From: Flavobacteriales bacterium
GTDB lineage: Bacteria; Bacteroidota; Bacteroidia; Flavobacteriales_D; Crocinitomicaceae
Assembly (NCBI GenBank): GCA_947453715.1
Contig: CANGHX010000012.1
Span: 1 to 32,549, forward strand
Reading direction: 5' to 3'
Length of the DNA stretch: 32,549 nt
Shown: piece after piece, positions 857-22,188 of the stretch
Position numbering within the stretch: the first letter of the stretch is position 1
How the letters are laid out: every line of letters starts with the position of its first letter
Notes under the pieces: generated by a model
Seen by the model: only the letters and a program-made list of their open reading frames with translations
Told to the model about the DNA's origin: nothing
Databases searched by the model: none
Program-made: the position numbers and the translations under genes

Positions 857-2236
857 ATGTATTTAAGATTACTTTTCGGTTTATTTATCGCTACTATTTC
901 ATTTAATGCAAGTGCTATTAATGTTTCTTTAATTACACCTCCAGATTCTACTGCGAAACTGTTAGACAAAGCTGGAGCAATGCTTCTAGTGGACGAAGGA
1001 AGAACAATGTTTGATGAAGGAAAAGTAAAAGATGCTTTAAATCTTTTTAGAGAAGCTGCTGCTAAAGATCCGTATAGCTGGAAACCAACTTATTGGATTT
1101 CAAGTTGTCACTTACATATGTCAAATTTTGGTTTTGCGTTGAAATATGCCAAAGAATCGTTGCATACTGACCCGGAAAATGTTGATAAAGAAGTTTTTGA
1201 GATCATTGGACAAAGTTTTCACAACATTGGACAAGTTGATTCAGCACTTGTATATTATAATAAATGTTTGACCTTATTATCAAAAACAAGAATTAAAGAG
1301 TTAAAAATCAACGAAAAAATTGATCAATGTAATTTATACAAATCAGAAAAGGCTGCAGGTAAAAAATCATTACGAGTAAAATTAAATGGTGAAGTGAATA
1401 CAGGATTTAATGAATACGCACCTATTTTGGCAAAAGGTGGAAAAGAGCTCTACTTTACTTCTAGAAGAAATAACACAACTGGCGGTTTATCAAATCCTGA
1501 TGATCAAGAATTCTTTGAGGATATTTATAGAGCCGAATGGAATGGTGATGATCAAAAATGGGATAGTGTTACAAATGAAATCGACCGAATTAATTCTGAT
1601 GGATTTGATGCAATGTCATTTATCACGGCTAATGGATTACATGCATATACAACTTTAAATACAGCAATGCTTGACTCAAAACATAAAACAAAAAGTGGAG
1701 AAATATGTGAAATTGATTTTACAGATAAAGGAAAATGGTCAACACCTAAAATAATAAACAACAAATCAATAAACACACCATATGGTGAGTCAAGTGCATC
1801 AGTTACTGCAGATGGAAATACAATGTATTTTATGTCAGATAGAAATTATGATAAAAAATTAAAAGAAATTTATGTCGTACATAAAAATGGTAAACATTGG
1901 GGAACAGCTATCGCATTGTCTGATAGTATAAACACTAAAGGCGACGAAACAACCCCATTCATTACTCCTGATGGAAAATATTTATTTTTCAGTTCAAATG
2001 GTCACCCAGGAATGGGAGGATTAGACATTTTTGTTTCTGAAAATTTAGGCGAGAATGTTTGGTCAACTCCAGTAAATCTTGGTATTATCGTAAACACTGT
2101 AAACAACGATTCTCATTTCCAATATTACCCAGAAATGAAAAAAGCTGTTTTAGCTGGTTCAGAAGTAATCGGACAAAAATCAAGTTTAGACATTTACGAA
2201 GTGGATATGAGTAGCTTTTCTTATCCTAAGAGATAA
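857..2236 (+). CDS. Secreted TPR-PD40 beta-propeller protein (PorE-like front half)
   Basis: 459 residues. Signal peptide at residues 1-20 (ends NASA). TPR-like helical repeats cover about 35-150 (DEGKVKDALNLFREAAAKDP, then FALKYAKESLHTDP). A PD40/WD40-like propeller covers about 180-450, with typical blades such as YAPILAKGGKELYFTSRR, TADGNTMYFMSDR and TPDGKYLFFSSNG followed by GGLDIFVSE. Proteins of this class sit in the periplasm or at the outer membrane and act as scaffolds. The family member PorE of the type IX secretion system has the same TPR-PD40 order. Unlike the 690-residue protein at 13237-15309, this one ends right after the propeller, with no carboxypeptidase-regulatory or OmpA domain, so its partner is unknown. 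A strong terminator follows. Its last 14 codons are duplicated at 5088-5128. Confidence 0.85.
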   Translation: MYLRLLFGLFIATISFNASAINVSLITPPDSTAKLLDKAGAMLLVDEGRTMFDEGKVKDALNLFREAAAKDPYSWKPTYWISSCHLHMSNFGFALKYAKESLHTDPENVDKEVFEIIGQSFHNIGQVDSALVYYNKCLTLLSKTRIKELKINEKIDQCNLYKSEKAAGKKSLRVKLNGEVNTGFNEYAPILAKGGKELYFTSRRNNTTGGLSNPDDQEFFEDIYRAEWNGDDQKWDSVTNEIDRINSDGFDAMSFITANGLHAYTTLNTAMLDSKHKTKSGEICEIDFTDKGKWSTPKIINNKSINTPYGESSASVTADGNTMYFMSDRNYDKKLKEIYVVHKNGKHWGTAIALSDSINTKGDETTPFITPDGKYLFFSSNGHPGMGGLDIFVSENLGENVWSTPVNLGIIVNTVNNDSHFQYYPEMKKAVLAGSEVIGQKSSLDIYEVDMSSFSYPKR

Positions 2237-2257
2237 TAATAGTTGAAATACTTTGAA

Positions 2258-2285
2258 GCAGGATCAAAAATCCTGCTTTTTTTTT
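2258..2285 (+). terminator. Rho-independent terminator of the PD40 gene
   Basis: A perfect 7-bp stem, GCAGGAT / ATCCTGC, with loop CAAAA is followed by nine T residues. It starts 22 bp after the stop codon at 2236. Confidence 0.9.
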
Positions 2286-2408
2286 ATATATGACCTAAAT
2301 TGAACTTAATAATTCCACTATTTTAAGAAAGTATTTTAAGTCTTACAAAATACCAACACGATTGATTACTTTTTAGATTATATTTTCTAGATTTGGATTA
2401 TCGATGTC

Positions 2409-2427
2409 GCAGGATTGCAAATCCAGC
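2409..2427 (-). repeat. Palindromic element, inverted orientation (E1)
   Basis: The plus strand reads GCAGGATTGCAAATCCAGC, the reverse complement of the element at 6023-6041. The arms form a hairpin of about 8 bp with loop GCA and one internal A:A mismatch. The same mismatch (as T:T) is kept in the opposite orientation at 6023. It closes repeat L copy 1 and precedes the orphan gene at 2596. Confidence 0.85.
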
Positions 2428-2438
2428 GAAGCGAGGCT

Positions 2439-2595
2439 CATTTAATTTTAAAATTATTCATGATCATGTCGGAAAATATTGGTAATGTATCCTGCAACTT
2501 CACTTTTGCAAAGCTTCTCAAGATTTTCAGAGATTATCATCTTGGCTTAATAAATATGTTATCTATACCTTATAATCCTCCAACACGTTAATTTT
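2439..2595. other. AT-rich spacer between element E1 and the first orphan gene
   Basis: No convincing gene. A 28-codon reverse-strand ORF (2454-2540) is present but has no recognisable homology or promoter. With 2237-2438 this makes a gene-free gap of about 360 bp, holding the terminator and most of repeat L. Confidence 0.6.
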
Positions 2596-3051
2596 ATGTT
2601 TATTAAATTTTTTCTCTATATAAGTTTATTTATTTTTAATATTTCAATAATATTTGCTCAAGATGAAGTATATAATAGAAAAATAAAAACTACTTTTTAT
2701 GAGTATTATATTGATTCGAATGATTTTTTAAAAAAAATTGAAAATGAACAATTGTCAGTTTATTTGAAAAACAATTATAATTTAACTAATTTTTATAGAA
2801 ATAATGATGAGAATACTTTTATTTTTTCTAAACCGTTTGATAAAGATTATGATTATGACATTTCAATAAAATTTATAGATAATTTGTGTATTGTGAATGT
2901 CATCAATAATGGGGGAATGGTAATTTCAAATTCATTTGTAGATGTTTGGGAGATTAGTAATGGTTATTATTATTTAAAATTTATAGAACTAACTACTCCA
3001 ATAAAAGAGAATGTGATAGAGTTTGCTTTTAAACCAAAAACACCAAGATGA
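2596..3051 (+). CDS. Small secreted protein of unknown function
   Basis: 151 residues. I do not recognise the family. A classical signal peptide is visible: MFIKFF, a hydrophobic run, then a Bacteroidota-style cleavage site IIFAQ-DE at about residue 22. The mature part is rich in Asn, Tyr, Asp and Ile, has no cysteine cluster and no sorting domain, and ends KPKTPR. The reading frame is extremely AT-rich compared with the flanking housekeeping genes, suggesting recent acquisition. It lies just inside the element E1, in the same orientation as the next two cargo genes of the islet. A periplasmic or surface location is inferred from the signal peptide only. Confidence 0.65.
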   Translation: MFIKFFLYISLFIFNISIIFAQDEVYNRKIKTTFYEYYIDSNDFLKKIENEQLSVYLKNNYNLTNFYRNNDENTFIFSKPFDKDYDYDISIKFIDNLCIVNVINNGGMVISNSFVDVWEISNGYYYLKFIELTTPIKENVIEFAFKPKTPR

Positions 3052-3073
3052 GCTGAATTATAGACACTACATG

Positions 3074-3096
3074 TTCAAAATCAGCAGAGCGAGGAC
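3074..3096 (-). repeat. Degenerate half of the palindromic element (E2)
   Basis: The plus strand reads TTCAAAATCAGCAGAGCGAG and continues with GAC. This aligns with the second half plus tail of the inverted element at 5303-5332 (TTGCAAATCCAGCGGAGCGA, then GGCT). It sits between the genes at 2596 and 3138, about 40 bp before the second start. It appears to be a decayed or truncated copy. Confidence 0.55.
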
Positions 3097-3137
3097 TAGA
3101 AAGTTTTAATATTGATTAAATAACTTAAATTAATAGA

Positions 3138-3647
3138 ATGGATGAGGAACTATTTTCCAAAATTAGAATAAATAAATTTGAAGAAGGCTACAAAATTATT
3201 ATTTCTAATATTAAATGGAATTTATATAAAGTTTATATTCTATTGTTTTCGATATTTTTCAATTATTTTATTTGGTTTGGTATTACATATAATGTTAAAA
3301 GTTTTATTTCTATATTTTTTATGTTACCATTTTTCATATTGGGACTTGCATTATTTGTTTATTTCTTATTTATAAAATTTGGGCAAATTATAATAATTTA
3401 TAATAATAAAATAATTAAGGTTAGGTGGAAATTGTTTAATTTCAGATATTCAAAATGGAACAGAAGTGAAAATTTAGTCCAAATAATAGAAACTAAATTG
3501 AGTGACGAAACTCATTTACCTAGAAGTGTAATAGAGTTTCTTTTTAAAAAGGACATAAAAATTAAATTTGGGTCCTATCTGATTGATTCAGAACGTAAAT
3601 GGTTAATTCATAAATTAAATGAAATTAGAAATTGTGAAAAAGTTTAA
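3138..3647 (+). CDS. Two-TM membrane protein of unknown function
   Basis: 169 residues, not recognised to family level. After a charged N-terminal 30 residues there are two adjacent hydrophobic helices (about 32-54 and 59-83, the second ending FVYFLFIKFG). A C-terminal cytoplasm-like domain of about 85 residues follows, starting IIIIYNNKIIKVRWKLF and ending with FGSYLIDSERKWLIHKLNEI. That ending resembles small bacterial membrane proteins with a two-helix hairpin followed by a PH-like domain and a terminal helix (inference by pattern only). Very AT-rich, like the preceding gene. The palindromic element R1 begins five bases after the stop codon, so the gene and element abut. Confidence 0.6.
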   Translation: MDEELFSKIRINKFEEGYKIIISNIKWNLYKVYILLFSIFFNYFIWFGITYNVKSFISIFFMLPFFILGLALFVYFLFIKFGQIIIIYNNKIIKVRWKLFNFRYSKWNRSENLVQIIETKLSDETHLPRSVIEFLFKKDIKIKFGSYLIDSERKWLIHKLNEIRNCEKV

Positions 3648-3651
3648 AATA

Positions 3652-3755
3652 TAGCTTCTCCAAGCTAAGCTGGATTTACAATCCTGATCTAATAAAAAAC
3701 TCAAATTTGTAGCGGAAAACAAAGAATAAACGTCCATTAATCCACGCTATGCCTC
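3652..3755 (+). repeat. Repeat R, copy 1, containing palindromic element E3
   Basis: Positions 3652-3729 align over about 78 bp with 6007-6083: TAGCTTCTCC, then the palindrome at 3669-3687 (GCTGGATTTACAATCCTGA), then AATAAAAAACTCAAATTTGT and AAACAAAGAATAA. The following stretch to about 3755, with AATCCACGCTATGCC, is matched at about 5978-5993 by AATCCACGCTAACCCGCC in the degenerate copy. It lies directly downstream of the gene ending at 3647. Confidence 0.85.
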
Positions 3756-3914
3756 ATTACTTCGATAAAAACTCAGTAAAGAATTCAAAGCTAGATCATT
3801 AGAAGAAATTAGAAGTACACACCCGAAGAATCATGCTCAAAATAGTTGTTTACAGGTAGGGTGAAGCAACAGTTTCCACTCCTAAAAAACCACTCTTACT
3901 CTACTCCTTAACTA
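3756..3914. other. Spacer between repeat R1 and the toxin-antitoxin pair
   Basis: No gene is supported. A short open stretch on the plus strand (about 3766-3863) is flanked by stops and has no start. No terminator-like hairpin with a T run was found for the antitoxin gene, which ends at 3915 on the reverse strand. Confidence 0.5.
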
Positions 3915-4487
3915 TCAAACCGCTTTCAACAAATCCATCTTCTTCAATTTCAAGCTCGTTTGTTTCTTTGTAATTTTTATTTTAGAAATAGTATCATTAA
4001 TTCTTAAACGCTCTTCAGAGGGAAGTATTGTTAAAATAAGATATTCCAATTTTATATCAAAAAGACGGTGTATGATAATTAAATCTTTATTAGAAAATGG
4101 ATAAACACCATTCATTAATTGAGAAATATACGATTTTCCGTGCCCTAAAATTACTCCAAATTCTTGTTGTGTTAAACCAAATTCAGACAAGCGCTGTTGA
4201 ATGTGTTCTTTTCGATTTAATAAAAACACACGCTCTTGTTCTGCTATAAAAGTTGCATAATCACTTTCTTTCAATTGAACTTCAGAAATTTCAACTTCTG
4301 GATTCCAATTCCTCTTTTCAAAATCAATGATTAATTGTTTTAGTTCTAATCTAAGCTTATTTAGTTCTTTATCTTCTTTCGCTAATAAACGTAGTTTTCT
4401 CAATAAAATAGATGCCCGTTCAAATTCCAATTCGTTTGAAATAACACCTTTTTTTAAAAGTTTTTTTATGTCTAATTGTGTTTTCAT
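3915..4487 (-). CDS. higA: HigA-like antitoxin, Xre/HTH family
   Basis: 190 residues. A C-terminal helix-turn-helix covers about 94-150: LTQQEFGVILGHGKSYISQL then MNGVYPFSNKDLIIIHRLF, the classic Xre/HigA helix 2 - turn - helix 3 pattern. The N-terminal 90 residues are helical and charged, probably for toxin binding and dimerisation. Antitoxins of this type neutralise the HigB endoribonuclease and repress their own operon. The gene follows the toxin by 16 bp, in the toxin-first order typical of higBA and opposite to most type II pairs. It is longer than the typical HigA of about 100 residues, the excess being the N-terminal extension. Autoregulation is inferred from the family. Confidence 0.8.
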   Translation of the reverse strand: MKTQLDIKKLLKKGVISNELEFERASILLRKLRLLAKEDKELNKLRLELKQLIIDFEKRNWNPEVEISEVQLKESDYATFIAEQERVFLLNRKEHIQQRLSEFGLTQQEFGVILGHGKSYISQLMNGVYPFSNKDLIIIHRLFDIKLEYLILTILPSEERLRINDTISKIKITKKQTSLKLKKMDLLKAV

Positions 4488-4503
4488 CTTTCAAAATTTA
4501 TAG

Positions 4504-4845
4504 TTAATCAATCCATTCATTTACTTTCAACCATTTACGGATGACATCCTTATTATTCTTAAACACCAACTCATATTCATCATGAGAGCCGCACCAAACA
4601 ACTGCCGCTTCTTCAAATTCTCCAAATTCAATTAGTATCAAAGATCGATGGATATGTAAATCAAAAAAGTAAAAATCTTCATGGACGCAATCCGCATCTT
4701 TTCTCGCTAAAACCATTTCAGATTTATCTTTCCAATTCGAATTTTCAATTTCAAAAATTAATTTTTCAATCTGAATGATCAACAGAGTGTTTCCTATATT
4801 TTTCTTTTTTAATTTTAATAATTTATGTGTTCCGGTTAGTTTCAT
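4504..4845 (-). CDS. higB: HigB-like toxin (RelE-fold mRNA interferase)
   Basis: 113 residues. The C-terminal half has the HigB-family pattern: a Trp near residue 38, ARKDADCVHEDFYFFDLHIH (beta hairpin ending in a basic/His segment), LILIEFGEFEEAAVVW, and the signature CGSHDEYE, comparable with the THxEYD motif of HigB toxins. These toxins cut mRNA on translating ribosomes. The family is usually about 95-105 residues, so the length is normal. A 16-bp gap to the antitoxin implies one transcript. The TATATTTG box ends seven bases before the ATG, so the transcript would be nearly leaderless if that promoter is used. The pair lies inside the repeat-bounded islet. Catalytic residues cannot be fixed from sequence alone. 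Confidence 0.75.
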   Translation of the reverse strand: MKLTGTHKLLKLKKKNIGNTLLIIQIEKLIFEIENSNWKDKSEMVLARKDADCVHEDFYFFDLHIHRSLILIEFGEFEEAAVVWCGSHDEYELVFKNNKDVIRKWLKVNEWID

Positions 4846-4852
4846 TTCTATG

Positions 4853-4860
4853 CAAATATA
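4853..4860 (-). promoter_or_regulatory. Candidate higBA promoter -7 box
   Basis: The reverse strand reads TATATTTG (TAnnTTTG). It ends seven bases before the higB ATG, implying a leader of only a few nucleotides. An imperfect inverted repeat, TTATGATTTTTTTATAA, lies just upstream at 4870-4887 and could serve the antitoxin as operator (inference). Confidence 0.4.
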
Positions 4861-5071
4861 GAAATAAAGTTATAAAAAAATCATAACATTTAATTTAATT
4901 CAATAAAAATTCTTGCAATTTTATGAATCAATTAACTCAAATGCTCTTTACTATGAATCTGCGATATTCATTATACTAGAACTAAAGTTTTGTACTTTGC
5001 TCTTTGAAAATAGAATAGGAAATAAGTCACTTCTTGAAATTATAGGCTAACTTCATTGCATGAACATTTTA
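4861..5071. other. Gene-free spacer upstream of higB
   Basis: AT-rich with no supported gene. It holds a 6-bp inverted repeat, ATGAAT / ATTCAT (4953-4971), and a plus-strand stretch GTTTTGTACTTTGCTCTTTG (about 4987-5006) with weak promoter and boxA resemblance. Neither serves a visible downstream gene. Confidence 0.4.
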
Positions 5072-5085
5072 TCTCCCGCTGAGCT
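5072..5085 (+). repeat. Truncated palindromic element (E4) at the duplication junction
   Basis: TCTCCCGCTGAGCT matches the left part of the element at 6012-6025 exactly. It then breaks off, and repeat L copy 2 begins three bases later at 5088. The junction therefore falls within one of these elements. Confidence 0.75.
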
Positions 5086-5154
5086 TGCATTTACGAAGTA
5101 GATATGAGTAGCTTCTCTTATCCTAAGAGGTAATAATAGTTGAAATACTTTGAA

Positions 5155-5181
5155 GCAGGATAAAAAATCCTGCTTTTTTTT
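5155..5181 (+). terminator. Duplicated terminator in repeat L copy 2
   Basis: Stem GCAGGAT / ATCCTGC with loop AAAAA, followed by eight T residues. Structure is conserved relative to 2258-2285 (one loop change). It would stop any plus-strand transcription entering from the toxin-antitoxin side. Confidence 0.85.
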
Positions 5182-5302
5182 ATATGACCTAAATTGAACT
5201 TAATAATTCCACTATTTTAAGAAAGTATTTTAAGTCTTACAAAATACCAACACGATTGATTACTTTTTAGATTATATTTTCTAGATTTGGATTATCCATG
5301 CC

Positions 5303-5321
5303 GCAGGATTGCAAATCCAGC
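5303..5321 (-). repeat. Palindromic element, inverted orientation (E5)
   Basis: The plus strand reads GCAGGATTGCAAATCCAGC, identical to the copy at 2409-2427, followed by GGAGCGAGGCT. It lies 25 bp before the ATG of the lipoprotein gene at 5347. Confidence 0.85.
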
Positions 5322-5346
5322 GGAGCGAGGCTAATTGGTAAATTTT

Positions 5347-5718
5347 ATGAAAACAAAAACTATTTTATTTTTTTTAGTATTATCCATTTATATTAATTCA
5401 TGTATATCAGATTTGCCTAATGGTGCTTGTGATAATGATAAAATCATGTATGAAGAGCAGTGGGATTATATAGTTGAAAATGTTTTTAAACACAGTCAAT
5501 TTAAAGCAACATATGTAATTGAAACTAATAATGGTAAACAATTAATATTTTGTCCAATACAAGGAATTGTTTCAAATGCAGAAAAAGGTGACCAAATAGT
5601 GAAAGCAAAAAATAGCGAAATTGCTTTTTTAATTAAATCAAGAGGAAATTTCAAAGATACAATAAGCAGTAGAATATTCTCTCCTACATGTGATAACGAG
5701 ATTATTAAAAAAAAATAG
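5347..5718 (+). CDS. Small predicted lipoprotein of unknown function
   Basis: 123 residues from the ATG at 5347. An in-frame TTG at 5335 would add four residues but fits less well in front of the signal peptide MKTKTILFFLVLSIYINSC. The Cys at residue 19 lies in a lipobox-like INSC, so lipid anchoring is likely. The mature part starts ISDLPNGACDN, carries further cysteines (FCPIQG; SPTCDN near the C-terminus) that could form disulfides, and ends in a Lys run. I do not recognise the family. It sits directly after repeat L copy 2 and before two R repeats, in the same relative place as the gene at 2596 after copy 1, though the two proteins show no similarity. Function not assigned. Confidence 0.65.
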   Translation: MKTKTILFFLVLSIYINSCISDLPNGACDNDKIMYEEQWDYIVENVFKHSQFKATYVIETNNGKQLIFCPIQGIVSNAEKGDQIVKAKNSEIAFLIKSRGNFKDTISSRIFSPTCDNEIIKKK

Positions 5719-5901
5719 GTAGGAAGTAGGTAAAGTAATTTATCAAACTGGGTAATGTATAAAAATGGAGCTTTTTGATAACGTGCATTTTTAACTTGTT
5801 GATTTTGGTAATGTTTCAGAATGTAGCTTTTAAGGATTATAAAATTTTAAAGTTCTGATTTTTAGGTGTAAATCGTTTCGAGTATATTGATTGTAATATA
5901 C
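5719..5901. other. Spacer after the lipoprotein gene
   Basis: AT-rich and gene-free. No T-run terminator was found after the stop at 5718. With the repeat elements at 5903-6083 this forms a gap of about 390 bp before the next gene. Confidence 0.5.
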
Positions 5902-5902
5902 A

Positions 5903-5995
5903 CCCGCTGCGATGAATTTGCAATGCTTCGCTAAATGTGAACTTAAGTCTGTATCGAAAAACAAAACTTCCACAATCCACGCTAACCCGCCATTA
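5903..5995 (+). repeat. Degenerate copy of repeat R (E6)
   Basis: CCCGCTGCGATGAATTTGCA (5903-5922) aligns with CCCGCTGAGCTGGATTTGCA of the copy at 6015. Further on, TCGAAAAACAAAA and AATCCACGCTAACCCGCC align with 3711-3755 of repeat R1. It has diverged far more than R1 and R2 have from each other, so it is probably older. Confidence 0.6.
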
Positions 5996-6006
5996 AAACG
6001 CAGGCC

Positions 6007-6083
6007 TAGCTTCTCCCGCTGAGCTGGATTTGCAATCCTGCTCTAATAAAAAACTCAAATTTGTGGCGAAAAACAAAGAATAA
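6007..6083 (+). repeat. Repeat R, copy 2, containing palindromic element E7
   Basis: TAGCTTCTCCCGCTGAG is followed by the palindrome GCTGGATTTGCAATCCTGC (6023-6041) and the shared tail AATAAAAAACTCAAATTTGT, GGCG and AAACAAAGAATAA. It aligns with 3652-3729. It ends 27 bp before the stop codon of the convergent T9SS gene and marks the right border of the islet. Confidence 0.87.
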
Positions 6084-6109
6084 TGTTTATCAACCCAAAA
6101 CAGAATTAA

Positions 6110-7792
6110 TTATTTTACGATAACCAATTTATAGGAATATAATTTCTCTGCTTGAACTTTAACTATATATCCACCTTCAGGTATATCTTTTGTTTGTAAA
6201 GAAAATTGGTAATTATTGATATTCTTTGCATTGAAAACTACGTTACCTTTTTTATCGATCAAATTAACTTCTTCGATTGGCAATTTTGAATTTATGATTG
6301 ACACTTCTGCATTCATCGACGGATTTGGAAAGATTGAAATCAATTGCTCCGCTTCAATTTCGTTCAAACCAACATAATTTGCATTAAATTTTGCAACAAA
6401 TGCATCTCCAGAATTATTCGGACTATTAATTTGAATAGCATTAGAACCAAAAGTGGTTGGAACACTTGAAAAATCTCCTGCAACTAGTATATTTCCCAAA
6501 TTGTCTATCGCAATTGCTCCAGCATTTTCACCTGAATTACCACCTATTTTCTGATTAAAAATAGCTGTACCATTTGCATCATAAGTCACCATGAAAATCT
6601 CGTTGCTTCCCCCAAAAGATAATGCTCCTAAACCGAAATTCAATCCTGGACCATCGTTTCCTCCTACAACATAAACATCTCCATTAATATCCGTCACAAT
6701 ACTTTTACCACTTTCAGAAAATGATGCATTCCCTGCACTTTTCGCCCAAATAACACTTCCTAATTGATTCATTTTAGCTATTACAACGTCCGTTTCAAAA
6801 CCAAGTGAAGTTCCAGAATTTGTAACTACAATTCCTCCAAAAGAAACCGATGCACTATTAATTTCTCCCGTAAAATAGATATTATCATCGTTACTTACAG
6901 TGACAGAATTAATTTGTTCATTCCCTGATCCACCATATGAATTTGCCCAAACTACCGAACCATCAGTATCATATTTCCCTACAAAAACGTCGTATGAAGT
7001 GTATGGATTACCATTCGTCAATGTATAAGTTCCAACTTGAACTGTTGCACTTGAAAAAGCTCCAACGATTACAAGTGAATGATTACTTGTCAATGCACAA
7101 CTATTAATACTATACATTCCTGCAATTTCTCTATGCCAGATGATTGTTCCATCAGAATTTAATTTAAAGAGAAAAGAATCGCCTCCAGCCCCAGTAATCG
7201 TTTGCCCACCAAAAGTAAATGAACTACTATTATATTCTCCAACTAAATAAAGATTCCCACTTGAATCAATTGATAAATCCTCTCCTGTTTCGGAATAAGT
7301 TCCTGAGGATACTTTAGACCATAAAATAGTACCTTGTGAATCTAATTTAATTAAAAACAAATCATTATAACCTGAACCTAAGTTAGTATAGGTAGTAGAA
7401 CCAATTGAGATTGATCCACCTGAAGTATGACCTAAAACATATATATTTCCTGATTGGTCAGTTACGATTGAATTTATTCCTTCATCTCCATTTCCTCCAA
7501 AACTTTTAGCCCATTGTAAGTTACCAGTAGCATCGTATTTAACAATGAAGGCATCAGTATGAGTTCCCGAATTAGAATTATTTGTTAAAACTGTTGAATC
7601 AAAGTTTAATGTTGGACTGTAAAACCACCCACCACTTATTACGTTATTGTTAGCATCAGTCGTCACAGTTTTTGCTGCATCGTATGAACTTCCCACTCCA
7701 TTTTTTGCCCATGAACAAATGTTTGTTTGAGCGATCGAAGTCGATACTAAAGTAATTGTAAGAAATGCGAAAGTGGCAATGGTAGTTTTCAT
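6110..7792 (-). CDS. T9SS-exported SBBP-type beta-propeller protein
   Basis: 560 residues. Signal peptide at 1-21 (ends STSIAQ). The body, about 30-475, is a chain of propeller blades of the SBBP type: each has a WAKS/WSK strand, a DxxGNxY turn and a GG/FG strand, for example TDQSGNIYVLGHTSG, DSSGNLYLVGEYNS and DNLGNILVAGDFSS. The last 80 residues form a type A T9SS sorting domain: ISIFPNPSMNAEVSI, a LIDKKGNVVF strand, then PEGGYIVKVQAEKL and the end YKLVIVK. It should cross the outer membrane by type IX secretion and stay on the surface or be released. Monocistronic, converging on the islet. The substrate is unknown; SBBP proteins are often structural or adhesive. Confidence 0.88.
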   Translation of the reverse strand: MKTTIATFAFLTITLVSTSIAQTNICSWAKNGVGSSYDAAKTVTTDANNNVISGGWFYSPTLNFDSTVLTNNSNSGTHTDAFIVKYDATGNLQWAKSFGGNGDEGINSIVTDQSGNIYVLGHTSGGSISIGSTTYTNLGSGYNDLFLIKLDSQGTILWSKVSSGTYSETGEDLSIDSSGNLYLVGEYNSSSFTFGGQTITGAGGDSFLFKLNSDGTIIWHREIAGMYSINSCALTSNHSLVIVGAFSSATVQVGTYTLTNGNPYTSYDVFVGKYDTDGSVVWANSYGGSGNEQINSVTVSNDDNIYFTGEINSASVSFGGIVVTNSGTSLGFETDVVIAKMNQLGSVIWAKSAGNASFSESGKSIVTDINGDVYVVGGNDGPGLNFGLGALSFGGSNEIFMVTYDANGTAIFNQKIGGNSGENAGAIAIDNLGNILVAGDFSSVPTTFGSNAIQINSPNNSGDAFVAKFNANYVGLNEIEAEQLISIFPNPSMNAEVSIINSKLPIEEVNLIDKKGNVVFNAKNINNYQFSLQTKDIPEGGYIVKVQAEKLYSYKLVIVK

Positions 7793-7859: not shown

Positions 7860-8219
7860 CTACAAACTTTCCAATACCTTCTCATTAACATGTCCTTTCG
7901 TTGCTAAAAACTGAACGAAATGCTTTAATTTTAATTTAATCTCTTTTGGATCCCAATCCGTCAATCCTTCCCATTTGACGTGCAATAAGAACTTTTTATT
8001 CGCATTGGAAACCGTTATTTCTTCAAAAGAAAGATGATCAGTAAAATCTTTGATATGTTTCACAAAAAGAGTCGCCACACGATAATGACCACTGATTGCC
8101 CCAGTTGACATTTTATCTTCTTCCAATTGTTGTTTGAAAACTTCAATCAATTCAGTTAATTCCTGAATAAAGGAGTCTTTTTGATCCCAGAAGGCCTGAT
8201 CTGTTTTTGTTGGTTTCAT
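7860..8219 (-). CDS. Conserved-looking cytoplasmic protein of unknown function
   Basis: 119 residues, no signal peptide or membrane segment. The N-terminal half is helical and acidic (KDSFIQELTELIEVFKQQLE). A mixed segment follows (HVKWEGLTDWDPKEIKLKLK), then a helix ending VNEKVLESL. I do not recognise the family. It lies 130 bp downstream of rplT on the same strand but beyond the rplT terminator, so it probably has its own promoter. The next gene starts 67 bp further on. Codon use looks like the neighbouring core genes rather than the AT-rich islet. Confidence 0.65.
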   Translation of the reverse strand: MKPTKTDQAFWDQKDSFIQELTELIEVFKQQLEEDKMSTGAISGHYRVATLFVKHIKDFTDHLSFEEITVSNANKKFLLHVKWEGLTDWDPKEIKLKLKHFVQFLATKGHVNEKVLESL

Positions 8220-8285: not shown

Positions 8286-8316
8286 AAATAAAAAAGCCAT
8301 TCACTTTGTGAATGGC
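8286..8316 (-). terminator. Rho-independent terminator after rplT
   Basis: The reverse strand reads GCCATTCAC - AAA - GTGAATGGC (9-bp perfect stem), followed by TTTTTT and more T-rich sequence. It lies about 30 bp after the rplT stop and ends the thrS-infC-rpmI-rplT transcript. Confidence 0.92.
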
Positions 8317-8349
8317 TTAAGCTGTATAGAGTTCCCTAAGGTTACTTAA

Positions 8350-8697
8350 TTATTTTTTAATTGTTTCCACAATTGCTTTGAATGCTTCCGGTTGGTTCAT
8401 TGCTAAATCAGCAAGAACTTTACGGTTCAATTCAATTCCACTTTTGTGGATAGCACCCATGAATTGAGAATAGCTCATTCCGTGTTGACGAGCACCCGCG
8501 TTGATACGAGCGATCCATAAAGAACGGAAATTTCTTTTCTTTTGCTTACGACCTTCGTATGCGTAATTTAATCCTTTTTCAATTGCATTTTTAGCAACTG
8601 TCCAAACATTTTTTCTTCTTCCAAAGTAACCTTTGGCAAGCTTCATAAAGTTCTTTCTACGAGCTCTTGAAGCAACATGGTTTACCGATCTTGGCAT
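8350..8697 (-). CDS. rplT: 50S ribosomal protein L20
   Basis: 115 residues, the normal length. [20 protein letters not shown], then [12 protein letters not shown], the [20 protein letters not shown] segment and [14 protein letters not shown] are all canonical L20 sequence. L20 is a 23S rRNA-binding early assembly protein of the large subunit, and in several bacteria a repressor of its own operon. It is the last gene of the thrS-infC-rpmI-rplT block and is followed by a strong terminator. The 159-bp gap after rpmI is longer than usual and contains hairpins, leaving room for regulation (inference). Confidence 0.98.
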
Positions 8698-8778
8698 AAT
8701 TTTTTAGTTTTTTGATAGTGAGTGTTTCATTGTCGCAGAAAACTTTGTACTCAAATATCGGGTTAACAATACTAAACC

Positions 8779-19519: not shown

Positions 19520-20743
19520 ATGAAATTATATCTTTTCATATTGGCATTTATTTCTGGAGTTTGTTACTCACAACAACTTCTTCCTATTCAATATGACACA
19601 CTTTCAAACTATAATGAAATTATCATAAATGGTTCAGGAGAATATTCTTCAACTGCAATGAGAAATGAATTTATGGGGAAATTCATAAATGGAGGATTTA
19701 TTTCAAATGATGTTAAAGATCAAACTTTTAAAAAACTTAAAGGCATAAACATCACTGGTTTTGATGTTTCTTCCGAACTGGAATACAGGTTATTGAAAGT
19801 CAATTTGTTTAAACATTCAAATTTAGGTCTAATTGTAAAAACAGGCTATACTTCAATCGGATCAATCTCTTATTCGAAAGATGCTTTTGGATTAACATTT
19901 TATGGAAATGAGCAATACATTGATAAAACCGTCAATTTTTCAGGTACAGAATTCAAATTCTCAACATTTCAAAAAATTGGATTAGGTATCATTTTCAAAA
20001 AAACAAAATCAAGTATTTGCTTCAATTACTATAACTTACAAAACAATATTCAAAGTTCAATCATTCAAGGTTCATTTTATCAACCCAATGGAGGATTAAA
20101 TGATAGTTTAAAAATAAATGGAGACTTTAGTGCTTCGAATGGAACTCGATTTAATAAAGGATTTGGTGTTGGCATTGATTTAGATTTAAAATTAAAGATC
20201 GACTGGACGAAAGAACAAAATGCATATATCCAATTTGTGGTTAAAAATTTAGGATTAGCAACAATTTCATCAGGTGCAACAACTTATGTCTTTGATTCAA
20301 CCTATCATTACAGTGGTTTCAAATTAAATCAATTAATAGGTAAAAACAATGTGTTTGATGACACCACTCAAATCTACTCTCAATTAGGAATACAAAAATC
20401 AATTCATAGATCAAATCTATTTTTACCAGTAATGTTTCAAGTAGGTAAAATTGTAGATCAATATCAAATCCGAAAATTGCAATCATTTTTTGGAATAAGA
20501 ATGTTTCCTACAATGGCTTATATACCAATGGTGTATGCTGGTGCTAATTACAAATTGAATCAAATTTTTGATATCGGACTTCAAGAAAGTTATGGAGGAT
20601 TCGCGTATTTTAGAACTGGAATATATGTTAATGCAAAAATAAAAAAATGTGTATTTGGAATTGCATCTGAAAATATCATTGGTGCTTTCAATAAAAACGG
20701 GAATGGTAAATCATTAATTTTTAGACTACAATGCAGATTTTAA
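19520..20743 (+). CDS. Outer-membrane beta-barrel protein, DUF5723-like
   Basis: 407 residues. Signal peptide MKLYLFILAFISGVCYSQ. The body alternates hydrophobic/polar strands with glycines and aromatics, as in transmembrane beta-barrels: ISYSKDAFGLTFYGNEQYID, GLGIIFKKTKSSICFNYYN, GVGIDLDLKLKIDW, AYIQFVVKNLGLATISSG, and it ends FRLQCRF with a terminal aromatic residue. Overall it resembles the DUF5723 family of Bacteroidota (by eye; not checked). Start ATG at 19520 abuts the lipoprotein stop; its own end overlaps the next gene by 13 bp. Inferred role: outer-membrane partner of the lipoprotein or of the secreted propeller. Confidence 0.65.
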   Translation: MKLYLFILAFISGVCYSQQLLPIQYDTLSNYNEIIINGSGEYSSTAMRNEFMGKFINGGFISNDVKDQTFKKLKGINITGFDVSSELEYRLLKVNLFKHSNLGLIVKTGYTSIGSISYSKDAFGLTFYGNEQYIDKTVNFSGTEFKFSTFQKIGLGIIFKKTKSSICFNYYNLQNNIQSSIIQGSFYQPNGGLNDSLKINGDFSASNGTRFNKGFGVGIDLDLKLKIDWTKEQNAYIQFVVKNLGLATISSGATTYVFDSTYHYSGFKLNQLIGKNNVFDDTTQIYSQLGIQKSIHRSNLFLPVMFQVGKIVDQYQIRKLQSFFGIRMFPTMAYIPMVYAGANYKLNQIFDIGLQESYGGFAYFRTGIYVNAKIKKCVFGIASENIIGAFNKNGNGKSLIFRLQCRF

Positions 20744-22188
20744 TTAAAACATTTCTGATTCTCTTTTTGCCATTTTTAGGATGGTCACAAATTTCATTTT
20801 ATAAATTGTACTCGAATAATGGTTACGATTTTGGTCAAGGTGCTGTGCAATTAGAAGATAGCAGTTACATTATCACTGGTTCTTCAAGTAGTTTTAGTGA
20901 AACCAATTCTTCTCAAGCTTTTTTAATGAAAATTGATAGTTTAGGTAATAATAAATGGTCAAAAAATTATGGTGGTATTGAATCTGATTGGGGAAGACGA
21001 GTATTGTATTCAAAAAATGATGCTCTATATGTTAGTGGATTTACTAATTCAATTGGAAATGGCGGATATGATTTTTATCTCATCAAAACTGATTTATCAG
21101 GAAATTTAATTTGGGAAAAATCTTATGGTGGTTCAGGTTGGGAAAAAGTAAATGATGCCATATTACTGCCAGATACAAGTGTCATAATGGTTGGTGAAAC
21201 CAATTCGGAAACACTTGGTGATAAAGATATTTATATAGTTAAAACTGATAAAAATGGTGATACATTATGGACTAAACAAATTGGTACTTCAGGAGAAGAC
21301 TTTGCAACAAGCATTCGTATTTTAAATGATTCTATTTGTATCATTGGTGGTCAAATTTACAATTCTGATTCTTTGATGACGAAAGCCTACCTATTAAAAT
21401 TAAATGTAGACGGCACAATCATCTGGGAACATCAATATGGAAAACATGGAAATACAATTTTTAAAGATTTATGTTTAGTAGGAGACCATATTAATGCGGT
21501 TGGACATAAACAAAATATCTTAACAGGAAAAATTGACCCAATTTGTTCTAAAATATTTTTAAATGGGAATGAAGATTATCTATTCGAAGACATTTTGACT
21601 GGTGACTACTACTACGAATTAGTTTCAACTTACGCTCAAACGAATAAACTTTACTTAGCAATTAATTCTTCAGTATCTGGCACAACATACCCCGATGGAT
21701 TAGATTTATCAATTGCCAGATATAGTGAATCTTTATTATGGGACAATCATTCTGTTAATGTCTCAAATATTGGTGATGATATAGGTGGACAAATAATACC
21801 TACCAGTGATGGTGGGGTAATAATGGTAGGTTATAACACTCATTTTGGAAGTGGAGGAAATAATGTATTCGCTCTAAAAATTAGCGGTGATGAAGTTTTT
21901 CCAAATACGGCTTTACCCCCTTTTGTTTCACCTTTAGTTGAATTAATTGAATTGGAAAATGAAAAAATATCATATTACCCAAATCCAGCGAACAATGTTT
22001 TAACTGTAATATTACCCGAAAATTGGGAAGGATTGGTATCTCTAACAGATCTACTTGGTAAACAATTGTTTGAACAAGAAAATCCTACACAAATCGAATT
22101 AAGCGACTATTCAAATGGAAATTACATTTTAACCTTCAGAAATTCAAATGGTTCAAAATCGAGTAAAATGATTACAATCAATCATTAA
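20731..22188 (+). CDS. T9SS-exported beta-propeller protein
   Basis: 485 residues. The ATG lies inside the last codons of the barrel gene (CAATGCAG), overlapping it by 13 bp, so translational coupling is likely. Signal peptide MQILIKTFLILFLPFLGWSQ. Residues 30-395 are propeller blades with a repeating D-x-x-G-N/D-x-x-W-x-K-x-Y/I-G-G pattern, for example DSLGNNKWSKNYGG, DLSGNLIWEKSYGGSG and DKNGDTLWTKQIG. C-terminal type A sorting domain: KISYYPNPANNVLTVILPEN, LTDLLGKQLFEQ, SNGNYILTF, ending KSSKMITINH. Exported by type IX secretion. It ends at 22188, exactly abutting the stop codon of kdsC on the other strand, with no terminator between them. Confidence 0.85.
   Translation: MQILIKTFLILFLPFLGWSQISFYKLYSNNGYDFGQGAVQLEDSSYIITGSSSSFSETNSSQAFLMKIDSLGNNKWSKNYGGIESDWGRRVLYSKNDALYVSGFTNSIGNGGYDFYLIKTDLSGNLIWEKSYGGSGWEKVNDAILLPDTSVIMVGETNSETLGDKDIYIVKTDKNGDTLWTKQIGTSGEDFATSIRILNDSICIIGGQIYNSDSLMTKAYLLKLNVDGTIIWEHQYGKHGNTIFKDLCLVGDHINAVGHKQNILTGKIDPICSKIFLNGNEDYLFEDILTGDYYYELVSTYAQTNKLYLAINSSVSGTTYPDGLDLSIARYSESLLWDNHSVNVSNIGDDIGGQIIPTSDGGVIMVGYNTHFGSGGNNVFALKISGDEVFPNTALPPFVSPLVELIELENEKISYYPNPANNVLTVILPENWEGLVSLTDLLGKQLFEQENPTQIELSDYSNGNYILTFRNSNGSKSSKMITINH

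Follow-up and report, generated by a model that had tools for sequence, protein, structure and literature searches.

Integron gene cassettes are small, unrelated genes separated by structured repeats, the attC sites, which carry boxes of the forms GTTRRRY and RYYYAAC. A second kind of structured repeat, the repetitive extragenic palindromic (REP) element, is linked to REP-associated tyrosine transposases (RAYTs). RAYT subclass 2.6, which corresponds to group 5 of Bertels et al., occurs mostly in Bacteroidetes, and its genes are described in the main text of PMC6006769 as flanked by "atypical" REP-like structures that lack GT[AG]G and have copies elsewhere in the genome. The same text gives its motifs as NH[LIV]H, WQ and YIH[QN]NP, with a long spacing between HuH and tyrosine (median 82 aa). 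Here we describe the window, the whole 32,549-nucleotide stretch of contig CANGHX010000012.1 (C12 in our numbering) from the 3.3-Mb genome of a Flavobacteriales bacterium, in which palindromes lie among small genes downstream of a gene with PD40 repeats. In our preferred reading, to which we give a probability of about 0.6, the palindromes are REPs of a subclass 2.6 RAYT that have gathered in a gene-exchange hotspot, where different DNA has been joined at REP ends through junctions made by the RAYT.

The core of the palindrome was found exactly at 2409 (minus strand), 5303 (minus) and 6023 (plus), with two mismatches at 3669 (plus), and nowhere in 100 shuffles, confirming all four positions proposed in an earlier, sequence-only reading of this DNA. 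The four copies form one family, with a GCT foot, a 4-bp stem, a T:T mismatch, a 5-bp stem and a TGY loop. The canonical GT[AG]G tetranucleotide was not seen at the foot, and GCT or GTT following a C-rich end stands in its place. The leftward copies, recognised by core, fold and foot-end composition, are termed REP B1 (2407-2436, minus) and REP B2 (5301-5330, minus), and the rightward ones, recognised by repeat search, core and fold, REP A1 with its tail (3664-3729, plus, lower stem degenerate) and REP A2 with its tail (6014-6083, plus); the repeat search gave the two rightward copies a common block of 66 nt at 92% identity. Three of the four core copies fold as DNA with the T:T mismatch (-8.7, -8.3 and -7.5 kcal/mol), and the 3669 copy keeps the upper stem alone (-3.2), so that the off-centre mismatch ascribed to all full-length hairpins holds for three. 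Degenerate or truncated copies had been reported in addition at 3074, 5072 and 5903. The last of these (5906-5971, plus, a 64% repeat copy resembling REP A) folds weakly (-4.0, z -0.7), and the stretches at 3074 and 5072 form no hairpin in the fold; read by eye, 3081-3094 (minus) and 5073-5085 (plus) are outer parts of the element, with C-rich end, foot and lower stem. Leftward copies do precede plus-strand genes, as had been noted, at about 160, 43 and 16 bp from the genes at 2596, 3138 and 5347.

The element is not confined to this locus. Core hairpins were identified in 30 of the 149 genomes searched, and the window's own genome holds six core matches with up to two mismatches, a low copy number, four of them in the window; further partial copies lie on its contigs C141 and C300, and a longer-loop variant was recognised by eye on both and in genome G012. 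Covariation was assessed on 85 distinct hairpins whose upper stem is intact and whose loci had been chosen without regard to the outer stem. The outer two lower-stem pairs form in 84 and 75 of them, against 68.8 and 52.7 after shuffling, and the next two positions outward pair in only 24 and 3; pairs 1 and 2 (82/85 and 79/85, against 81.1 and 78.1) hardly vary and are uninformative. GCT stands directly before the stem in 67 of the 85. Upstream of the foot, among 129 copies, C accounts for 53-69% of the bases at positions -1 to -4, 31% at -5, 30% at -6 and 12-23% further out. From these foot and stem counts and the C-rich upstream positions, the REP unit is roughly CCCC-GCT-NNGC-T-GGATT-TGY-AATCC-T-GCNN. 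Our hairpin sets, of 206 (neighbour-gene length), 85 (covariation), 129 (upstream C) and 267 copies (gene orientation), differ in size through mismatch limits, locus sets and duplicate rules; all except the set of 85 include loci selected with a search pattern in which some lower-stem positions are fixed, and the statistics ignore relatedness.

A scan of named genomes (best 80 of 100 stretches) placed the hairpin mostly in Crocinitomicaceae, Crocinitomix, Fluviicola and metagenome bins of Flavobacteriales; some record titles, such as Polynucleobacter, do not fit and are not relied on. The site between what we take to be dapA and its next gene in genus g2, compared without G083, holds a REP pair in G034, G153, G073 and G062 and a decayed one in G150, and no pair was found there in G151, G012 or G050, nor in G154 and G155, which are more distant. 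The plasmid collection searched gave no match for the REP B block (5240-5345). Two further loci are recorded as seen. On contig C214 of the window's genome (L062:3588-4148) an orphan gene starts about 37 bp from a REP B copy and a second, degenerate REP supplies its final codons (FANPAERE), and in G049 (L251:4232-9501, contig C10) an array of same-direction REPs and small genes includes two 144-bp repeats that extend from a REP into the opening codons (MKYLIGI) of two genes that otherwise differ.

A gene for a 189-190-aa protein lies between inverted hairpins spaced about 700 bp apart in three of 11 congeners (G003, G007 and G008) and in G024, of another genus. This protein matches the Pfam family Y1_Tnp, of the HUH tyrosine transposases, and bears the RAYT motifs NHIH, WQ and YIHNNP with a HuH-to-tyrosine spacing of 84 aa; motifs and spacing fit those given for the Bacteroidetes subclass 2.6 (PMC6006769), of which we regard it as a putative member. 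Since inverted hairpins flank a subclass 2.6-like RAYT in congeners, we are confident that the palindromes are REP elements of this subclass, which agrees with the earlier suggestion of REPs processed by a RAYT. Across RAYT loci, REP-like hairpins stand inverted on both sides in 14 of 31 (23-base pattern with six mismatches, a count without a control), and inverted 14-mers are common to both flanks in 19 of 31; variant cores at such loci include CTGCAGTTGCACTG and GGGTTTGCAACCC. A RAYT match (E 1e-15) was obtained in 15 of the 30 hairpin genomes and in 30 of the 119 others, by hand count and without a statistical test. Phage records yielded no RAYT. In the window's own genome, the RAYT query detected a 32-residue fragment with a stop on contig C300, by eye between two REP-like ends, and three other Y1 places gave no match to it. 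The locus concerned (L104:1-420) looks like what is left of a RAYT element, one end of which carries a longer-loop REP.

The RAYT bears directly on whether the islet could instead be an integron-like cassette array whose site has escaped recognition and whose site-specific recombinase is encoded elsewhere. Small unrelated genes between hairpins are what such an array would look like, whereas here the hairpins flank a RAYT in relatives, their copies point in both orientations, and the REP consensus was seen by inspection to contain neither of the two attC boxes. No integron integrase was found by Pfam among the islet genes, a search that left aside the other open reading frames of the window and the rest of the genome. 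We consider this explanation extremely improbable.

The stretch in which the REPs lie is a gene-exchange hotspot. Its left border, a PD40/TPR gene (857-2236, plus; Pfam PD40), was found in all 12 genomes of the genus, and the neighbour that we take to be purB adjoins it in 10 of the 11 congeners, with a contig end at that place in the remaining one, G002. In six genomes, the window's included, the islet downstream of PD40 is followed by the same hypothetical right-hand border gene (7860-8219, minus, recognised by comparison of congeners) and by what is presumably rplT (8350-8697); the other six congeners carry different genes downstream of PD40. The approximate distance from PD40 to the right-hand gene is 5.6 kb in the window, 3.2 and 1.8 kb in G003 and G010, and 0.2, 0.14 and 0.08 kb in G009, G006 and G011, respectively. 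The borders are thus conserved around empty and differently filled sites, as the sequence-only reading had supposed for sister strains. Its other expectations, copies elsewhere and facing pairs, are likewise borne out, and the transposase that it looked for in the same genome is present as the fragment alone.

The first genes in the islet of the window are two orphans on the plus strand, orfA (2596-3051, 151 aa) and orfB (3138-3647, 169 aa), each matched among the 149 genomes in its own genome only. They are followed on the minus strand by a toxin-antitoxin pair, consisting of a likely antitoxin of the Pfam family HTH_3 (3915-4487), with a 98% identical protein at the same locus in G003 and G010, and a HigB-type toxin (4504-4845; Pfam HigB_toxin); the pair is common to the window and G003, where the toxin is complete, and incomplete in G010, where the toxin is partial. 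Next come the small gene orfC (5347-5718, plus, 123 aa), whose single match beyond its own genome is 54% identical and lies in G066, and, still inside the variable stretch, an SBBP beta-propeller gene with a secretion sorting domain by Pfam (6110-7792, minus), which has no counterpart within the same borders in the other five congeners. An islet scan located REPs in the window genome and G010 alone; it detected none in G003, whose islet is filled differently, nor in G009, G006 and G011, whose islets are almost empty, which indicates that cargo turnover does not need REPs.

What may tie the REPs to this turnover is a duplicated anchor, absent from the sequence-only reading. The leftward copies at 2409 and 5303 close direct repeats of about 250 bp (2191-2442 and 5088-5336, 96-97% identical by block), which contain the last 46 bp of the PD40 gene. 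Anchor copy 1 (PD40 3' end, tail and REP B1; 2191-2436) and anchor copy 2 (the same with REP B2; 5088-5330) are joined by a third, which adjoins PD40 in the sister genome G010. The three are 93-96% identical up to the exact REP end and continue into unrelated DNA beyond it, so that REP ends lie at junctions; the alignment of copies 1 and 2 shows 8 mismatches and 3 gap columns, and that of either copy with the G010 anchor 13 mismatches, with 4 or 1 gap columns. Copy 2 starts with the truncated REP A end (5073-5085), then two bases, then a PD40 codon. Opening with a truncated REP A end and closing with REP B2, it is a unit bounded on both sides by outward REP ends and enclosing a gene fragment.

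Comparable borders were found elsewhere. In G024, 422-bp direct repeats (L255:3622-4041 and 8305-8725, contig C22) begin at a REP end and flank a helix-turn-helix (HTH) gene, a C-5 methylase/Eco57I-type gene and a third gene, and in G012 the foot marks where repeats of about 275 bp stop. Together, the anchor, G024 and G012 repeats show REP ends as rearrangement borders, whatever made the junctions. At the same G024 locus, a Gp49-type and HTH gene pair follows the second 422-bp copy.

A duplicated anchor could also be an assembly artefact, two co-occurring islet alleles having been joined in one contig of metagenome type. The genome is in 310 contigs, with completeness 92.67 and contamination 2.86, and the anchors are near-identical, as such an error would have it; the 8 mismatches and 3 gap columns between them speak against it, as does the start of copy 2 at the junction at 5085-5088 with a truncated REP rather than inside a long shared stretch. 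We regard an artefact as very unlikely, and the identity of the REPs and their RAYT is independent of the question.

How the junctions arose can be framed from the family. Because RAYTs of other groups are described as cutting on both the 5' and the 3' side of their REP, guided in one case by the foot (PMC8266576), the present RAYT may cut single-stranded DNA at the C-rich/GCT end and move inverted pairs. REPs would have gathered in the hotspot downstream of PD40, the one beside PD40 before the split of the window lineage and G010. After that split, different DNA would have come to abut the outer end of this REP, and a unit with two outward REP ends and the PD40 3' end would have arisen 2.9 kb downstream, next to orfC. 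The RAYT probably made these junctions, which are themselves observed, and the copy in the window's own genome would since have decayed to a fragment.

The REPs may instead be passengers, having landed in the islet because it tolerates insertions, while cargo turns over by homologous recombination between the conserved borders and the DNA of relatives; a junction at a REP end would then be the limit of shared sequence. Both the conserved borders and the different cargo of G003 are in keeping with this, and elsewhere REPs sit mostly beside gene ends, next to genes of ordinary length. It must, however, treat the shared borders as coincidence or as the result of plain REP insertion, and three anchors lose similarity at the same REP end, with the repeats of G024 and G012 also beginning or ending at the foot. 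We therefore hold it to be possible, if rather unlikely.

Several points weigh against joining by a RAYT at REP ends. G003 has exchanged its cargo without any REP found, and the RAYT query found no intact matching RAYT in the window's own genome. Membership of subclass 2.6 is by motifs, not by a tree. Any recombination in a REP-holding islet could make such junctions. Finally, genes beside the foot (n = 153) end at the REP in 94 cases and start there in 59, the reverse of the window islet; within 60 bp of the foot 43 of 58 are gene ends, and on the tail side ends exceed starts by 59 to 36. Given this orientation, the cargo of G003 with no REP found, and the ordinary length of genes next to REPs, the cassette-like logic of the sequence-only reading is not supported, or at most hinted at. 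With these points counted, a role of REP ends and their RAYT at the junctions is still what we think probable.

We also considered, and rejected, the idea that REPs generally frame short orphan genes: the median length is 223 aa for 177 flanking genes other than RAYTs, against 247.5 aa for 258 control genes (p = 0.19). Genes between two close REPs are shorter (n = 51, median 165 aa) in a set for which many loci were fetched for holding several REPs; its stricter pattern misses the 3669 copy, so that the window enters as the intervals 2429-5301 and 5323-6021. Pairs with the feet facing inward hold non-RAYT genes in 13 of 15 cases and pairs with the tails inward hold a RAYT in 7 of 13, and a foot-inward pair around a gene is the expected outcome of any two neighbouring inverted-pair elements.

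Toxin-antitoxin or Abi-like genes make up 8 of 48 genes between close REPs, the 48 being the 51 less three removed by hand (a RAYT fragment, a spurious-looking open reading frame and one of 65 aa). The eight are the HTH_3 partner and HigB of the window, YoeB, HipA and its HTH partner, AbiEii, a DUF6088 protein counted by its place beside AbiEii, and the inferred gene behind a second ParE match. The control comprised 48 genes from two random lists of 48 drawn from the 258 (39 from the first, 9 from the second), with genes of the PD40 loci left out as belonging to the same islet; no toxin-antitoxin family was among those listed for it (25 of 85), and individual scans of ten short members matched HTH_3 once and HsdM_N once. 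We take this as a hint of enrichment. Together with the G024 422-bp repeats, the eight genes are parallel signs for a broader view, in which REP ends of subclass 2.6 RAYTs would be recurrent joining points for incoming genes through an enzyme that joins single strands at the C-rich/GCT end, the anchor and its REP being copied along, and a REP beside a conserved gene would be a landing site for orphan, toxin-antitoxin and restriction-type genes. We consider this broader view distinctly doubtful.

Other features of the locus are recorded for completeness. Pfam gave no match above cut-off for the genes at 2596, 3138 and 5347, and positions 1800-6400 matched no known RNA family at E up to 0.5. A terminator-like hairpin with REP-like letters and a T run lies 3' of PD40 (2256-2278) and is copied with the anchor (5153-5175). 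A short repeat, GGTAATGTATC...TGTAGCTTTT, adjoins cargo at 5745-5775, at 5805-5835 and in G010 (L017:948-974), these being its three matches in 1.48 Mb of fetched DNA, in which the reversed pattern has none. The sole other orfC relative, that of G066 (L286, L285), stands directly 3' of a gene that by eye resembles the window gene at 20731-22188.

Set against described systems, the elements delineated here make up a REP family that belongs to a known RAYT subclass and sits in a genuine hotspot, with REP ends at some of the junctions. Titles and abstract openings among the literature matches listed, a scope outside which supplements and most subscription papers fall, describe neither this hairpin nor gene exchange at REP ends. 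RAYT subclass 2.6 agrees with our family in its Bacteroidetes hosts, its HuH, WQ and YIH[QN]NP motifs, and its non-GTAG flanking structures with genomic copies; the main text of PMC6006769 gives neither sequence nor terminus for these structures, so that the hairpin may be in its supplementary tables, and gene-exchange junctions are not mentioned in it. The structure, end and partner enzyme given here are those of little-described REPs of Bacteroidota. According to PMC6006769 and PMC8266576, the REP doublets (REPINs) and bacterial interspersed mosaic elements (BIMEs) known from E. coli and Pseudomonas likewise consist of inverted REP pairs that form single-stranded hairpins with a mismatch and a conserved 5' foot and have a partner RAYT, but our family has a GCT foot after a C-rich end in place of GTAG, and few copies. 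In TIRYT elements, too, a tyrosine transposase gene lies between inverted terminal repeats that are also dispersed (PMC3733652), whereas the repeat here is a short hairpin with a conserved foot, a comparison at the level of description. RAYTs are usually thought of as domesticated, and this is a natural locus at which to ask whether they also join other genes at REP ends. Integron cassettes share with the islet small unrelated genes between structured repeats, and differ in that here no cassette-type boxes were seen, orientation is mixed and a RAYT stands in place of an integrase; if the broader view of recurrent joining at REP ends is true, it would parallel gene cassettes with no site-specific recombinase involved.

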